NCBI GenBank assembly: GCA_002786715.1
Contig: PCTW01000084.1
Coordinates: 231,663 to 295,662 of the forward strand
DNA from: Bdellovibrio sp. CG22_combo_CG10-13_8_21_14_all_39_27
Lineage (GTDB): Bacteria; Bdellovibrionota; Bacteriovoracia; Bacteriovoracales; Bacteriovoracaceae
DNA length: 64,000 nt
Direction: 5' to 3'
Positions 20,566 through 61,140 of this stretch are shown here, one piece after another. The notes under the pieces are model-generated. The model searched no databases. It saw only the letters and a list, made by a program, of their open reading frames with translations, and was not told the DNA's origin. Made by a program: the position numbers and the translations under genes. Numbering within the stretch: position 1 is the stretch's first letter; every line of letters begins with the position of its first letter.

Positions 20566-20592
20566 TCAAGTCTGGTATTTATCTGACGATAA
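20566..20592 (+). promoter_or_regulatory. Sigma-28 (FliA)-type promoter of the first flagellin gene
   Basis: TCAAGTCT (20566-20573), 11-base spacer, GACGATAA (20585-20592). Compared with the enteric consensus TAAAGTTT-N11-GCCGATAA it matches 6 of 8 and 7 of 8 with exact spacing. The transcript would start near 20599, giving a ~100-base leader. The 242-base gap before it otherwise holds nothing I recognise. Confidence 0.8.
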
Positions 20593-21655: not shown

Positions 21656-21682
21656 TAAAGTTTTTTGAGGTATTTACGATAA
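21656..21682 (+). promoter_or_regulatory. Sigma-28 (FliA)-type promoter of the second flagellin gene
   Basis: TAAAGTTT (21656-21663, perfect match to the enteric -35 box), 11-base spacer, TACGATAA (21675-21682, 6 of 8). Transcript would start near 21689. A TTGACA at 21643 has no matching -10 box and is probably chance. Confidence 0.82.
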
Positions 21683-54602: not shown

Positions 54603-55516
54603 ATAAATCTATTTCAGACATACAGGAAATTGAATGTGAGTTTGTTCTTACTATTGGTAATTTTGACGGTGTTCACAAAGGACATGTGTCTCTCATTGAC
54701 CAAATTAAAACTTTAAAAAGCTCTAATCTCATCAAGCTTGCCGCTATGACCTTTCATCCACATCCTCATGTCGTCTTGTTTTCAAAAGAAGATTTTTTGC
54801 TTGAACGGCCAGACAACAAATCAAAACTTCTTTTTGATGCAGGTGTAGATTTTATAATTACGTTACCGTTTACTCGCGACTTTAGCACTTTGTCTCCGAC
54901 AGAATTTTTAACTAAATATGTCTTTAAAAATAAATTGTTAAAAATGGTCTGTCTTGGTCATGACTTTAATTTTGGGTCAAATAAGCAAGGAACGTTCGAG
55001 GACTTTGCAAAACTCGGTGAATCTCAAAATATCCAAATATTAAAGATGCAACCTTTTGGCAGTTCAAACAATCAAAACATATCATCTTCATTAATAAGAA
55101 GAATGTTAAAAGAAGGTAATGTGAAAACCGCAAATGAATATCTCGGACGAAATTATAGTCTGGATGGCGGTGTTGTTAAGGGAGCTGGTCGAGGGAAATT
55201 AATAGGTTTTCCCACGGCCAATATGAATATAGATAAAACTAGATTAACTCCCAAAATAGGGGTTTATGCTACGATTACCCAATATAAAGGCATTCGTTTT
55301 CAATCTATTACAAATATAGGAAGAAATCCTACGTTTGGAGAAGGATCTGTTTCAATTGAGACATATATTTTCGATTTCAATCATGATATTTATGGCGAGA
55401 ATATTGAGTTAGAATTTTGTGACTTCATTCGTGACGAAATAAAATTTGCAAATGTTAATGACCTCATTTCTCAAATCTCAAAAGATGTTGAGCTTCGAAA
55501 GAGTCTAAATGTATAA
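54599..55516 (+). CDS. ribF: Bifunctional riboflavin kinase/FAD synthetase
   Basis: 305 residues. N-terminal FAD synthetase: VLTIGNFDGVHKGHVSLI with HxGH-like GVHKGH, MTFHPHPHVVLF, FTRDFSTLSPTEFL, LGHDFNFGSNKQGT; SSSLIRRMLKEG. C-terminal kinase domain: GAGRGKLIGFPTANMNI, GVYA, TNIGRNPTFGEGSVSIETYIFDF, IYGENIELEFCDFIRDE. All present in order. Start overlaps the batD stop, although it has no known link to Bat; eight bases into aroE. Confidence 0.96.
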   Translation: MNKSISDIQEIECEFVLTIGNFDGVHKGHVSLIDQIKTLKSSNLIKLAAMTFHPHPHVVLFSKEDFLLERPDNKSKLLFDAGVDFIITLPFTRDFSTLSPTEFLTKYVFKNKLLKMVCLGHDFNFGSNKQGTFEDFAKLGESQNIQILKMQPFGSSNNQNISSSLIRRMLKEGNVKTANEYLGRNYSLDGGVVKGAGRGKLIGFPTANMNIDKTRLTPKIGVYATITQYKGIRFQSITNIGRNPTFGEGSVSIETYIFDFNHDIYGENIELEFCDFIRDEIKFANVNDLISQISKDVELRKSLNV

Positions 55517-56198
55517 ACTTGCACTTCTTGGACGGAACATATCACATTCTCAATCGCCAGCTATATATAGAAAATTATTGGGTGAAAATCTAGATTATAA
55601 ATTGTTTGATTTTTCACATGACAAGGAAATCCCTTCTTTGGAAGAATTATTTTCAGATGATCTCATGGGTCTAAGTATTACGGCTCCCTATAAGAAACAC
55701 TTTGTAGATCAAGTGCATTTTCTTAATCCTGATCTAACATTTTCCGCCATCAATTGTATTAGAAGGAATAAGAACAACTTCGAAGCAACTAACACTGATT
55801 ATCTGGCACTAGAAGAAATTTTAAATGATTTGCTCACTGCTAATGTTTACTCCAATATTGTTTTGTTGGGATCAGGAAGTATGGCCGAAATTACGCAGAA
55901 AGTTCTTAATAAACTTAATCGATCATATACTCATTTAACTAGAAAAAGTTACGGAGATCTTTCAAAGATTGATCTAAGTTCTCAGATAAAAGACGAAGCG
56001 GTAGTTCTCAATGCATGCTCACGGGATATGTATTTTTCAGGAAACCTCAGTCGTGGCAGTACTTTTTTTGATTTTAATTACGACATGAAACATGCATCGG
56101 TAATTCCCGATCAAAAACGTTCTATTGACTATATTGATGGGTTAAATCTCCTTTATCTTCAGGCCAAATATGCCCTTGATTTTTGGGCTTTATCCTAA
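55509..56198 (+). CDS. aroE: Shikimate dehydrogenase (short)
   Basis: 229 residues, some 40 shorter than usual. Motifs: LLGRNISHSQSPAIY, LSITAPYKKHF (catalytic Lys), SAINCI, ATNTDYLALEE (catalytic Asp), VLLGSGSMAEI (NADP loop), and the C-terminal DGLNLLYLQAKYALDFW. Substrate and catalytic residues are kept. The loss is mainly in the NADP-binding half. Overlaps ribF by eight bases. Could also be a shikimate-dehydrogenase-like enzyme of other substrate. Confidence 0.82.
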   Translation: MYKLALLGRNISHSQSPAIYRKLLGENLDYKLFDFSHDKEIPSLEELFSDDLMGLSITAPYKKHFVDQVHFLNPDLTFSAINCIRRNKNNFEATNTDYLALEEILNDLLTANVYSNIVLLGSGSMAEITQKVLNKLNRSYTHLTRKSYGDLSKIDLSSQIKDEAVVLNACSRDMYFSGNLSRGSTFFDFNYDMKHASVIPDQKRSIDYIDGLNLLYLQAKYALDFWALS

Positions 56199-56209
56199 TT
56201 CTCTATATT

Positions 56210-56236
56210 TAAGATTTTAATTAATAAATCCGATAA
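56210..56236 (+). promoter_or_regulatory. Sigma-28 (FliA)-like promoter before pilB
   Basis: TAAGATTT (56210-56217), 11-base spacer, TCCGATAA (56229-56236). Matches the enteric consensus 6 of 8 and 7 of 8, with exact spacing, and shares CGATAA with both flagellin promoters in this window. It lies 26 bases before the pilB start in the 64-base gap after aroE; the transcript would begin near 56243. Confidence 0.6.
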
Positions 56237-56262
56237 CATATGAAACCTAAAATGGGGATTTA

Positions 56263-57933
56263 ATGTTTCGTAAAGAGTTTGCTGAAGTTATCAGTCAGAC
56301 AGGGATGGTGCCAGTCAAAGACTTGCGTCCATTATTATTAGAAAAGGATCCATTAAAGATCTCAGAACTTGATCTTTTAAATCTTAGCTTTTTTGATGAC
56401 GTAAAATTTGCAAAACAACTAGCTGAAAAATACAAACTTACATTTATTGAACTCACTAAGGCTAAGATTAAGGAAAGAACGATTAAGCTGATTAAAAAAG
56501 GCGATGCGATAAAGTTTCGTGCTATGCCAATTCAGAAATCAGCAAAATCAGTAACTCTTGCTATTTATGACCCTACGATAATTGAACAAAAGACGGAGCT
56601 ACAGGCGCTTTTTCAGCATCCCGTAGAGTTTATTCTAACAAATATCTCTGCTTGGAAGAAAATATATGAGCGCGCTACTGAATCGATTGAAGAACTTCTT
56701 GGAACGATTAGAGAAGTTCGAGGTGATGAGAAAAAAGAAGATAACATTAAAGAAGAGGATATTGGAGATGAAGTAATCCTCTTGGTGAACAAAATCCTTG
56801 CTGAAGCTTTTATCCGCAAGGCTTCAGATATACATGTTGAACCTTATGAAAAAGATTTTCGAATTCGTTTTAGAATTGATGGTTCTCTTGATGTTGTTCA
56901 AACTCCAGATAAAAAGCTTATGCTGCCCATTGTTTCTCGTTTGAAAATTATGGCACAAATGGATATTTCTGAAAAACGTAAGCCGCAAGACGGAAGAATT
57001 AAACTCATGGTTGGGAATAAGCCGATTGACTACAGAGTCTCGTCGCTGCCAACTCTCTTCGGTGAGAAAATTGTTCTGCGACTTCTTGATTCTTCAAACC
57101 TGCAGCTCGATATGACCAAGCTTGGGATGGAAGCTAGACAGCTTAAAGTTTTTCAAGATGCTATCAATCAGCCCTATGGAATGTGTCTTGTTACAGGTCC
57201 AACGGGTTCTGGGAAGACCACAACGTTATATTCTGCAATTGCCGAACTCAATAAAGTGGACACAAATATTTCTACAGCAGAAGATCCTGTAGAATTTAAC
57301 CTTATGGGAATTAATCAGGTTAACGTAAAAAAAGACATTGGATTAACCTTTGCAGCAGCCTTGAAATCTTTCTTGAGACAGGATCCCGATATTATCATGG
57401 TTGGGGAGATTCGAGATTTTGAGGTTGGTGAAATTGCAGTTGAAGCTGCATTAACTGGTCACTTAGTTTTAAGTACCTTGCACACTAACGACGCCGCATC
57501 TACTGTAACTCGTCTTATCAACATGGGAATCGAACCATTCCTTGTTGTTGCAGCGCTTAACGTTGTCGTCGCCCAGAGACTTTGTCGAAGAATTTGTCCC
57601 GAATGCAAAGATGAGCACAAAGTTTCAATAGAGGAATTAGTTGCGTGTGGTATTGCTCCAAGTTCTGCTGAAAAAATAAAAGTATATAAAGGCAGGGGGT
57701 GTGATTATTGCGGGGGCTCTGGTTATAAAGGACGAGTTGCAATTTATGAAGTTCTTGACATGACTCCATTGGTAAAGGAACTCGTACTCAAGCATGCTTC
57801 TGCAGATGAAATTAAAAAACAAGCAATTAAAGATGGTATGAAAACATTGAGAATGACAGCTTTAACGAAAGTTGCTCAGGGGATGACGACACTTGATGAA
57901 GCGATTATAAATTCTGCCGCAGATAAATTCTAG
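56263..57933 (+). CDS. pilB: Type IV pilus assembly ATPase PilB
   Basis: Hexameric motor for pilus extension. 556 residues: N-terminal MshEN-like domain (residues ~1-150), then ASDIHVEPYEKDFRIRFRIDG, Walker A TGPTGSGKTTTLYS near residue 312, Asp box STAEDPVEF, Walker B QDPDIIMVGEIRDFEV, His box TGHLVLSTLHTNDA and a C-terminal zinc site made of CRRICPEC and CDYCGGSG. Length and domains fit PilB/GspE; the pilT, pilC and pilA neighbours decide for pili. Confidence 0.96.
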   Translation: MFRKEFAEVISQTGMVPVKDLRPLLLEKDPLKISELDLLNLSFFDDVKFAKQLAEKYKLTFIELTKAKIKERTIKLIKKGDAIKFRAMPIQKSAKSVTLAIYDPTIIEQKTELQALFQHPVEFILTNISAWKKIYERATESIEELLGTIREVRGDEKKEDNIKEEDIGDEVILLVNKILAEAFIRKASDIHVEPYEKDFRIRFRIDGSLDVVQTPDKKLMLPIVSRLKIMAQMDISEKRKPQDGRIKLMVGNKPIDYRVSSLPTLFGEKIVLRLLDSSNLQLDMTKLGMEARQLKVFQDAINQPYGMCLVTGPTGSGKTTTLYSAIAELNKVDTNISTAEDPVEFNLMGINQVNVKKDIGLTFAAALKSFLRQDPDIIMVGEIRDFEVGEIAVEAALTGHLVLSTLHTNDAASTVTRLINMGIEPFLVVAALNVVVAQRLCRRICPECKDEHKVSIEELVACGIAPSSAEKIKVYKGRGCDYCGGSGYKGRVAIYEVLDMTPLVKELVLKHASADEIKKQAIKDGMKTLRMTALTKVAQGMTTLDEAIINSAADKF

Positions 57934-57941
57934 GAGCTCTT

Positions 57942-59072
57942 ATGGCCGATGATAAAACAGCAACCAAAACCCATCAGGCTGGAATTGGTGACAGTATAAA
58001 AATCCAACAGCTCTTTAAGCTGATGGTTGATAGCAATGGATCTGACTTGCATCTCACGTCACTTTCTCCTCCTGGTATGAGAGTGAACGGCGAAATTGTT
58101 AGAGTGAAAATTCCTCCACTGACCCCTGCGGATACGAAGCGCCTTATTTATCAAATTTTAACTGAAGAGCAAAAAAATGAGTTTGAAAAAAATTTGGAGC
58201 TCGATTTTTCGTTTGGGATTAAGGGGCTCGCTCGTTTTCGAGCGAACGTTTTCTACTCAAAGGGATCAGTGGCAGCTGTTTTTAGACAGATTCCTAGTAT
58301 TATTCCTGATTTTAAAACACTAAATTTACCAAACGTTCTATTAGAGATGACTGATGTGAGTAATGGTTTGGTACTTGTTACAGGACCTACTGGCTCAGGT
58401 AAGTCGACAACGCTTGCTGCATTGATTGATAGACTTAATGAAAACGAAGCGGGTCATATTATAACGCTCGAAGATCCAGTTGAATTTGTGCATCCTCATA
58501 AAAACTGCTTGGTCAATCAACGTGAGATTGGCTCAGATACTTTGACCTTTTCCCACGCTCTTCGAAGTCTTTTAAGACAAGATCCAGATATTGTGCTTGT
58601 GGGAGAACTAAGAGATGTTGAAACGATTGAGGCAGCACTAACCGTTGCTGAAACGGGGCACTTAGTTTTTGGAACACTTCACACTAACTCTGCAGTCCAA
58701 ACTATCAATCGTGTAATTAACGTTTTTCCAGCACATCAGCAGGATCAAGTTCGAACACTTCTTTCATTTGTTCTTCAGGGAGTTATCGCACAGCAGTTGA
58801 TACCTAAATCATATGAACCTGGTCGAGTATGCGCTATGGAAATTATGGTTCCCACTCCTGGTATACGAAATTTAATTCGTGAAGATAAAATTCATCAAAT
58901 TTATTCACAAATGCAGATCGGACAAGAAAAAACGGGTATGATTACAATGAACCAAAGTTTAAAAAAATATGTCGATGCCGGACTTATCGACAATGATACG
59001 GCCATGAGTTATTCACCAAACCCAGAAGAGCTGGCAAAACAGATTGGTGCTAAAACACGTGGCATGACATAG
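57942..59072 (+). CDS. pilT: Type IV pilus retraction ATPase PilT
   Basis: Motor for pilus retraction and twitching. 376 residues: SDLHLTSLSPPGMRVNGE, Walker A TGPTGSGKSTTLAAL near 148, LEDPVEFVHPHKNCLVNQREIG, RQDPDIVLVGELRDVE, TGHLVFGTLHTNSA, and the PilT-specific AIRNLIREDK-type block GIRNLIREDKIHQIYSQMQIG. Eight bases after pilB with AGGAG before the ATG. A slightly longer N terminus (about 20 residues) than usual. Confidence 0.96.
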   Translation: MADDKTATKTHQAGIGDSIKIQQLFKLMVDSNGSDLHLTSLSPPGMRVNGEIVRVKIPPLTPADTKRLIYQILTEEQKNEFEKNLELDFSFGIKGLARFRANVFYSKGSVAAVFRQIPSIIPDFKTLNLPNVLLEMTDVSNGLVLVTGPTGSGKSTTLAALIDRLNENEAGHIITLEDPVEFVHPHKNCLVNQREIGSDTLTFSHALRSLLRQDPDIVLVGELRDVETIEAALTVAETGHLVFGTLHTNSAVQTINRVINVFPAHQQDQVRTLLSFVLQGVIAQQLIPKSYEPGRVCAMEIMVPTPGIRNLIREDKIHQIYSQMQIGQEKTGMITMNQSLKKYVDAGLIDNDTAMSYSPNPEELAKQIGAKTRGMT

Positions 59073-59089: not shown

Positions 59090-60310
59090 ATGGGTAATTG
59101 GACTTATGTAGGCATGACCAAAGAGGGCAGGAGAGAATCTGGCTCTGTGCAAGCGACGTCTGCCAAAGAGGTTAGAAGAGTTCTTAGAGGAAAGGGAATT
59201 AGACCTCTTAAGGTTTCACCACCTTCTCTTCTCGAGTTTGATATTGGCGAATGGATGGTTTCAAAAGGTTTATCAAAACCTTTCGGGGCAAAAGACCTTA
59301 TGATGTTCACTAAGCAATTATCTATTATGATCAATGCTGGTGTTCCCATTATTCAGGCTTTGGAAATTCTCTATAAAGCTCAAAAGCAACCCATGTTGAA
59401 ATTATCGATCAAGAGAATTGCAAGTGATGTTGGTGAAGGTAAAACAATTGCACAAGCAATGTCTTTTCATCAAGGTTTTGATAAACTTTATTGCAACCTC
59501 GTTAAAGCCGGTGAAGCTGGTGGTATTTTGGATACGATTCTAGGTAAACTTGCCATTCATTTGGAAAAACAGGAAAAAACGAAAGCACAGATTAAGTCAG
59601 CCATGAGCTATCCATTCATTGTAACCATTGTTGGTATTGGTGTTATTTATGCATTGATGATTTTTGTTGTTCCTCAATTTGTAGGGATGTTGCAAGAAAC
59701 CGGTCAAGAGATGCCAGGTATTACTCAATTGGTCATTGATATTTCAGCTTTCCTGCAAGAGTATACAGGTGTTGGTATTCCCATTTTATTTGTGACAGGT
59801 TTCTCTTTGAATTCCTGGAAGAAAACTCCAAGTGGAAAAATCATTACTGATAAAGCCTTTATGAATATGCCAATTTTTGGAGAAATCATCATTAAGGGAA
59901 ATCTCAGTGCTTTTACAAGAACGTTGTCAACTATGTTGGGTTCTGGAATTCCACTGGTTGATGCTTTAGAAATCTGTATTGATACCATTGATAACGGTGT
60001 TATTCGCAAAGATTTGGTTGAAGTTAGAAAAAAGGTTGTTGAAGGTAAATCTTTAACTGAGCCCCTCATTAAAATTACTTATTTCCCAGACATGGTTTCT
60101 CAGATGATTCGAGTTGGCGAGCAAACGGGACAAATGGATCAAATGCTTGAAAAGGTTGCTGACGTCTTTGAGGAAGAAGTTAACACCTTAGTAGAAGGCA
60201 TGACCAAGTTGATCGAGCCAATCATTATCGTTGTTCTGGGTGGTATTATCGCAGGAGTTCTTGTGGCCATGTACTTGCCAATGTTTATGAGTGCTGGTGG
60301 TGGAGAATAG
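59090..60310 (+). CDS. pilC: Type IV pilus inner-membrane platform protein PilC
   Basis: 406 residues with two GspF domains: LMMFTKQLSIMINAGVPIIQALEI and AFTRTLSTMLGSGIPLVDALEI, each followed by a membrane segment, and a last one in LIEPIIIVVLGGIIAGVLVAMYLPMF. The N-terminal TYVGMTKEGRRESGSVQA is the cytoplasmic start. Between pilT and this gene is a short AATAGGA tandem that provides the ribosome site. Couples motor ATPases to pilin. Confidence 0.95.
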   Translation: MGNWTYVGMTKEGRRESGSVQATSAKEVRRVLRGKGIRPLKVSPPSLLEFDIGEWMVSKGLSKPFGAKDLMMFTKQLSIMINAGVPIIQALEILYKAQKQPMLKLSIKRIASDVGEGKTIAQAMSFHQGFDKLYCNLVKAGEAGGILDTILGKLAIHLEKQEKTKAQIKSAMSYPFIVTIVGIGVIYALMIFVVPQFVGMLQETGQEMPGITQLVIDISAFLQEYTGVGIPILFVTGFSLNSWKKTPSGKIITDKAFMNMPIFGEIIIKGNLSAFTRTLSTMLGSGIPLVDALEICIDTIDNGVIRKDLVEVRKKVVEGKSLTEPLIKITYFPDMVSQMIRVGEQTGQMDQMLEKVADVFEEEVNTLVEGMTKLIEPIIIVVLGGIIAGVLVAMYLPMFMSAGGGE

Positions 60311-60397
60311 GTGAATGTGGCCGAAAATCGAGGCAATTTAATATAAAATGATTGTGACAAATAACTAAATACTTGAAAATTCGCACATCACTTTAAG

Positions 60398-60427
60398 CCT
60401 AAAAAGAAGGACTTATGACTTTTTAGG
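60398..60427. repeat. Inverted repeat over the pilA promoter -35 region
   Basis: CCTAAAAAG (60398-60406), 12-base spacer, CTTTTTAGG (60419-60427): perfect 9-base arms ending 18 bases before a TATAAT. AT-rich and with no T-run after it, so a regulator site fits better than a terminator. Confidence 0.5.
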
Positions 60428-60445
60428 AAAAAACCGAATAGGAAG

Positions 60446-60451
60446 TATAAT
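60446..60451 (+). promoter_or_regulatory. Candidate -10 box of pilA
   Basis: Perfect TATAAT at 60446-60451; the -35 region 17 bases upstream (TTAGGA) is poor and overlaps the inverted repeat, as in activator-dependent promoters. The transcript would start near 60458, giving a ~135-base leader. I found no GG-N10-GC sigma-54 pattern in the 281-base gap. Confidence 0.4.
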
Positions 60452-60456
60452 TAAAT

Positions 60457-60481
60457 ATGTTTACTGATTCATGTTTACTGA
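60457..60481 (+). repeat. Direct repeat in the pilA upstream region
   Basis: ATGTTTACTGA at 60457-60467 and again at 60471-60481, period 14, just at the predicted transcript start. Could be tandem binding sites or part of the leader. Confidence 0.55.
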
Positions 60482-60521
60482 ACCTCTTAATGGTTTATTA
60501 AATTTGGAGATGTAAAAGTTT

Positions 60522-60546
60522 AGAGACTTCAATTATGAAGATCTCT
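60522..60546 (+). promoter_or_regulatory. Hairpin in the pilA leader
   Basis: AGAGACTTCA (60522-60531) pairs with TGAAG-A-TCTCT (60536-60546) around an ATTA loop with one bulged A. Ten base pairs, 45 bases before the pilA start. Likely an mRNA stability or translational element. Confidence 0.5.
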
Positions 60547-60591
60547 TATTAGAAAAACCCATCTTAACTGGGATTATTCTTTGGAGGATTT

Positions 60592-61140
60592 ATGAGAACT
60601 TGGAAAACTGAAGAAGGCTTCACGCTGGTGGAGTTGATGGTTGTTGTGGCCATCGTTGGTATTTTGTCAGCCGTCGCTATTCCTAACTTCAAGAAGTATC
60701 AAGCAAAAGCAAAAACATCAGAAGCAAGACTTCAATTAGCTTCAATCTACTCAGCAGAAACATCGCTTCAATCAGACTTTGATGCCTTTGGTACATGTCT
60801 TCAAGATGCCGGATATATTTTTCCAGCAGCAAACAACTACTATGCTGTAGGTTTCACATCAACGAATGCTACTGCCAATGCTATTATTACAAACAACGGT
60901 GGCGTCTGTGCAGCTACAGGCTTTAATGGCGCCGCTGTTAAACGTGCTTATGGTTCTGCGGCAGCTACAACTGCTAATCTAACAGCACAAATTGCGACTG
61001 CTGTTGTGTCTAACACTGGTGATACATTTCAAGCAGGAGCTATTGGTAACATCTCTCCAGATAAAACAACTGCTGCAACTTGGGATCAGTGGACTATCGA
61101 CGAAAACAAGACGTTGCTTCACAAAGTAACTGGCTACTAA
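60592..61140 (+). CDS. pilA: Type IV major pilin PilA
   Basis: 182 residues. Type III signal: nine-residue leader ending EEG, cut before Phe, then FTLVELMVVVAIVGILSAVAIPNFKKYQAKAK with Glu at mature position 5. Two Cys residues in the first mature half (FGTCLQDAG and GGVCAATGF) could form a disulfide. Rich in Ala, Thr and Asn. GGAGGA precedes the ATG. Its own leader and terminator mark it as a separate, strongly expressed unit. Motility and adhesion subunit; in predatory relatives pili act in prey entry (family knowledge, not shown here). Confidence 0.95.
   Translation: MRTWKTEEGFTLVELMVVVAIVGILSAVAIPNFKKYQAKAKTSEARLQLASIYSAETSLQSDFDAFGTCLQDAGYIFPAANNYYAVGFTSTNATANAIITNNGGVCAATGFNGAAVKRAYGSAAATTANLTAQIATAVVSNTGDTFQAGAIGNISPDKTTAATWDQWTIDENKTLLHKVTGY

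Follow-up and report, generated by a model that had tools for sequence, protein, structure and literature searches.

The 64,000-nucleotide stretch of DNA analysed here (the window) raises the question of why a promoter of the flagellar sigma-28 (FliA) type should appear directly ahead of genes for the motors of a type IV pilus. With a probability of roughly 87%, positions 56209-56236 act as a FliA promoter, which would place pilB, pilT and probably pilC in an attack-phase regulon together with the flagellins and motA. The best reading is that type IVa pilus motor genes were added as lineage-specific new targets to a sigma-28 regulon already known to be expanded, a change within one Bdellovibrio-like family. 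If so, motility and prey-attachment machinery would be governed by one sigma switch.

The sequence ahead of pilB, from position 56208 onward, is TTTAAGATTTTAATTAATAAATCCGATAACATATG. In the E. coli form, this region contains TAAGATTT (56210-56217) and TCCGATAA (56229-56236) separated by N11, with the pilB ATG at 56263, 26 bases downstream. The original prediction described the site in this form and compared it to two flagellin boxes. Its description holds at every coordinate: the sigma-28-type box lies 26 bases ahead of pilB, and the same spacing is found in TCAAGTCT-N11-GACGATAA at the first flagellin gene (20566-20592) and in TAAAGTTT-N11-TACGATAA at the second (21656-21682). The same nucleotides can also be read as TTAAG (56209-56213), N16 and CCGATA (56230-56235), which is an exact match to the sigma-28 consensus mapped at attack-phase starts of B. 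bacteriovorus (Karunker et al. 2013, PMC3627812). This Bdellovibrio register suits the phylum better than the N11 form.

Table 1. Promoter elements and genes of the pilB locus, with the flagellin boxes of the window.
Feature	Positions	Strand	Basis
-35 element TTAAG, candidate FliA-type promoter of pilB	56209-56213	+	Sequence, consensus, matrix, spacer counts
-10 element CCGATAA	56230-56236	+	CCGATA invariant or nearly so in 29 anchored family upstreams
Predicted transcription start	56243-56244	+	Inferred; 7-8 bases past -10; A in 76% at column 56244
Shine-Dalgarno-like GGGGA	56254-56258	+	By eye
FliA-type box, flagellin gene 1 (fliC1), 10.5 bits	20566-20592	+	Sequence, matrix
FliA-type box, flagellin gene 2 (fliC2), 12.6 bits	21656-21682	+	Sequence, matrix
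Shikimate dehydrogenase-like gene, upstream of pilB	55509-56198	+	Profile match
pilB-like extension ATPase, MshEN domain at residues 57-139	56263-57933	+	Profile matches
pilT retraction ATPase, 8 bases past pilB	57942-59072	+	Profile matches
pilC-like platform protein, 17 bases past pilT	59090-60310	+	Profile matches
PilA-like pilin, after a 281-bp gap	60592-61140	+	Profile match

The genes downstream of the box are encoded in the order pilB, pilT, pilC, which is the arrangement of a type IVa pilus motor operon. PilB best matches model TIGR02538 (655 bits, just below the cut-off of 675.65), and judged by PilB the closest named relatives of the genome are Bacteriovoracaceae and Halobacteriovoraceae. 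PilT scores 488 bits against TIGR01420, above the cut-off, and PilC has a match of the GspF family or T2SSF type. The PilA-like gene is probably a separate unit, because the gap ahead of it (60311-60591) has no FliA-type box, the best score there being -0.6 bits. This long boxless gap precedes the pilin gene even though the motor genes just upstream carry a box.

The pilB box could be real but of minor importance, with the operon transcribed mainly by read-through or from another promoter and FliA boosting its expression in one phase. No terminator was found in the 64 bases between the shikimate dehydrogenase-like gene and pilB, so read-through into pilB could occur. Furthermore, Bdellovibrio-like genomes lack the box before pilB, yet a higher level of bd1509-1512 is reported for HD100 in attack phase than for strains growing independently of a host (PMC3818213). 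However, a search of the same 64 bases found no sigma-70-like promoter, and the box is retained in relatives where the neighbouring gene is a different one. A minor role for the box is thus unlikely, but it is a serious candidate.

The weight matrix used to score these sites was trained on 26 motA upstreams from family members and contained no pilB data. motA, a textbook FliA target, was chosen because sites with strict N16 spacing were too scarce ahead of the relatives' flagellin genes for training. The pilB box scores 15.2 bits, a value that is reached at two positions in 128 kb (both strands), the other of which lies inside an ORF. Shuffled versions of the pilB upstream attain this score in 11 of 20,000 cases. 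When the 150-bp upstreams of 55 ORFs in the window are ranked, the three sites that had been predicted to be alike are exactly the top three: pilB (15.2 bits), fliC2 (12.6) and fliC1 (10.5), with the fourth at 7.2 bits. The box before pilB shares its form with the motA promoters of the lineage and outscores both flagellin boxes of the window.

Pattern searches with reversed-pattern controls were used for statements on a genomic scale. TNAAG-N16-CCGATA occurs at 28 sites in the 4.08-Mb genome that contains the window, compared to two for the reversed-pattern controls, and 24 of the 28 fall outside ORFs of at least 100 amino acids. Genes located 3' of these sites include motA, another MotA/ExbB protein, a flagellin and two FecR proteins, as well as a Ser/Thr kinase, a DksA-like protein, a cytochrome and secreted or lipoprotein-like proteins. 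The set of FliA boxes in this genome, enriched as it is over controls, therefore reaches beyond flagellar genes. A looser pattern, TAARRTTT-N10-12-NVCGATAA, performed at the level of chance (three matches and two controls), unlike the Bdellovibrio register. Enrichment was also not clear for CCGATAANATA as an extension specific to pilB (13 matches versus 8 controls), and for this reason no separate pilB motif is claimed.

A search of related genomes for the same box, which the original prediction had proposed, found that it is retained. The matrix score is at least 8 bits in 42 of 61 distinct pilB upstreams from the family and at least 10 bits in 32, although these counts do not represent independent events because the sequences are phylogenetically related. 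Scores of at least 10 bits are found in 1.2% of dinucleotide shuffles and in none of the reverse strands. Information is concentrated at -35 (the T and AA columns) and at -10 (CCGATAA), with little in between. Spacing is also preserved in a matrix-free count: of the 38 upstreams that contain CCGATA, 9, 14 and 4 have TNAAR at spacers of 15, 16 and 17, respectively, and none has it at spacers of 18-22. The gene upstream of pilB is shikimate dehydrogenase-like in 40 of the 54 genomes checked, but strong boxes also occur where it is a different gene (G022, 16.9 bits; G120, 17.2; G017, 14.1; G041, 12.7; G058, 12.1). About a third of the family upstreams score below 8 bits, which indicates that the box has become weak, moved or been lost in many genera.

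These data bear on two further readings of the site. One holds that the box arose by coincidence in AT-rich DNA, or that it is a functionless remnant. The intergenic region is indeed AT-rich, and the intra-ORF site of equal score indicates that the chance of finding a single box per window is not negligible. However, conservation that extends across the family, is confined to the two promoter elements, is absent from reverse strands and survives a change of the upstream gene largely refutes this reading, which is scarcely credible. The other holds that the conserved TCCGATAACATAG is the binding site of a transcription factor rather than part of a promoter. It could account for the fact that conservation at pilB extends a few bases beyond -10, where the ATA right after CCGATAA (56237-56240) is preserved family-wide (T in 93%, A in 83%). 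A binding site is nonetheless very improbable, since the coupling of TNAAR at spacers 15-17 and a form in common with motA and flagellin promoters fit a sigma-28 promoter. The ATA may belong to the start region. It is not evident in the motA promoters.

The distribution of the box changes outside the family. In 36 genomes sampled from the phylum's other families, the 150 bp ahead of pilB always score below 10 bits, and scanning about 800 bp in the same genomes yields one match above this level, of 10.5 bits, located far upstream. Genomes that lack the box include G106 (3,782,950 bp) and G061 (2,657,893 bp), which, to judge by their sizes, are probably B. bacteriovorus HD100 and, in the second case, B. 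exovorus JSS. Gain of the pilB box in the window's family is a simpler explanation than loss elsewhere, because every outside family sampled is without it.

A cognate sigma factor for the box is encoded in the same genome as the window. As with the box, its position and its conservation, the presence of FliA is directly observed: the gene (C72:16354-17028) scores 274 bits against a cut-off of 189.6 and adjoins, by eye, a MinD/FlhG-like gene. FliA is found above the cut-off in 52 of the 55 family genomes checked. Two genomes, G026 and G036, have flagellins and a pilB box yet no FliA match above the cut-off, for which assembly gaps or divergence may be responsible. The window's genome also encodes a divergent FliA/WhiG-type paralog of 240 amino acids (C33:43647-44264), which scores 149-154 bits against TIGR02479, below the cut-off.

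The pili could have a sigma factor of their own, with this paralog rather than FliA serving the pilB box. The paralog retains R-RGA-LDE-R--DW, a region like that of FliA, and its region 4.2 is similar as well. However, a second FliA-like match comparable to it occurs in only about 11 of the 55 family genomes, and a protein that about a fifth of genomes possess can be rejected as the general user of the box. FliA is favoured because strong pilB boxes occur in genomes without a second match; G005, G048, G050, G120, G110 and G002 carry only FliA and a match of the RpoD level. In addition, one matrix fits both motA and pilB. Recognition by the paralog is accordingly quite improbable.

FliA control of genes outside the flagellum has precedent. 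In Bdellovibrio, FliA is a global attack-phase regulator that acts through the same consensus on non-flagellar surface genes (PMC3627812). The difference is that such a box is missing from the roughly 800 bp ahead of pilB in G106 and its relatives; pilB as a putative target is peculiar to the window's family. In Bdellovibrio, FliA also drives the operon of the TAD/flp (type IVb) pilus, as shown with an E. coli reporter (Avidan et al. 2017, PMC5430801), and promoter analysis suggests that TAD pili of other BALOs are controlled in the same manner (PMC5430801). That system likewise joins a pilus to a FliA-type promoter. However, FliA activity has been demonstrated there and is deduced from sequence here, and the genes in the window form a type IVa motor operon rather than a TAD operon. 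The fliA gene is essential in Bdellovibrio (PMC5430801). FliA is described as not regulating bd0108-0109 or the type IVa pilin gene pilA of Bdellovibrio (PMC5430801), and the exemption of pilA counts against FliA control of the type IVa motors.

Two other systems offer partial parallels. Classical class-3 flagellar sigma-28 promoters (fliC, motA) resemble the pilB box in -35/-10 form, spacing and cognate sigma factor, but they drive flagellar genes, whereas this box stands ahead of a non-flagellar one. In cyanobacteria, the group 3 sigma factor SigF regulates type IV pili via pilA (reviewed in PMC7690835). Of the pilus components, SigF controls only the major pilin; in the window, by contrast, the box stands ahead of the motor genes and is missing from the nearby pilin gene. 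No report of FliA acting on pilB-pilT-pilC in the window's family was found in the main texts of the openly readable literature.

Presumably, RNA polymerase carrying FliA binds 56209-56236 and starts a transcript with a short leader at about 56243. With GGGGA as the entry site for ribosomes, PilB and PilT, and probably PilC too, would be made together, as the gaps of 8 and 17 bases between their genes suggest. In this way, pilus extension and retraction motors would join the flagellins and motA in one FliA regulon. By analogy with Bdellovibrio, and provided that this organism is also a predator, the motors would be made in the free-swimming hunter and would drop as FliA drops after prey entry. 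MshEN is a known c-di-GMP binding fold, and its presence in PilB suggests that c-di-GMP control could be layered post-translationally on top. A c-di-GMP binding screen, cited in PMC5013675, picked up the Bdellovibrio protein Bd1509. The supply of pilin would be under a control separate from that of the motors, as is described for Bdellovibrio pilA (PMC5430801).

The original prediction went on to suggest that the shared promoter links swimming to pilus-based attachment. Retention of the pilB box in relatives and the presence of the cognate FliA support the prediction, but membership in an attack-phase programme is the better interpretation of the link, because a relative without flagella, G120, keeps both FliA and the pilB box. 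The link is also particular to this family. FliA, nominally a flagellar switch, probably governs a broader programme of hunting.

Relatives that have lost flagellar genes while keeping FliA and its sites constitute a natural test of the purpose of FliA. Searches for flagellin and FliG gave no match in G120 (98% complete) and G032, both of genus g33, and a search for flagellin gave none in G028. FliA is retained in all three, with scores of 272-276 bits. In G120, there are 16 TNAAG-N16-CCGATA sites compared to one control, most of them ahead of genes, and a perfect pilB box of 17.2 bits is among them. The pilB product is the only protein downstream of these sites with a match among the proteins downstream of such sites in the genome that contains the window. 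G032 shows no enrichment (seven sites, five controls) and has a weak pilB box of 7.8 bits; G028 has eight sites and one control, with the pilB upstream off the contig. The case for retention without flagella consequently depends mainly on G120. In this family FliA may have turned into a sigma factor for pili and the attack phase that persists after the flagellum is lost, with lineages that lost flagellin and FliG keeping FliA, enriched boxes and the pilB box, a tentative proposal whose odds fall a little short of even.

Besides full-length FliG, the window's genome encodes short proteins of about 140-160 amino acids that match FliG_C alone (C76:89685-90002 and C45:368036-368335), and similar proteins are found in G002.
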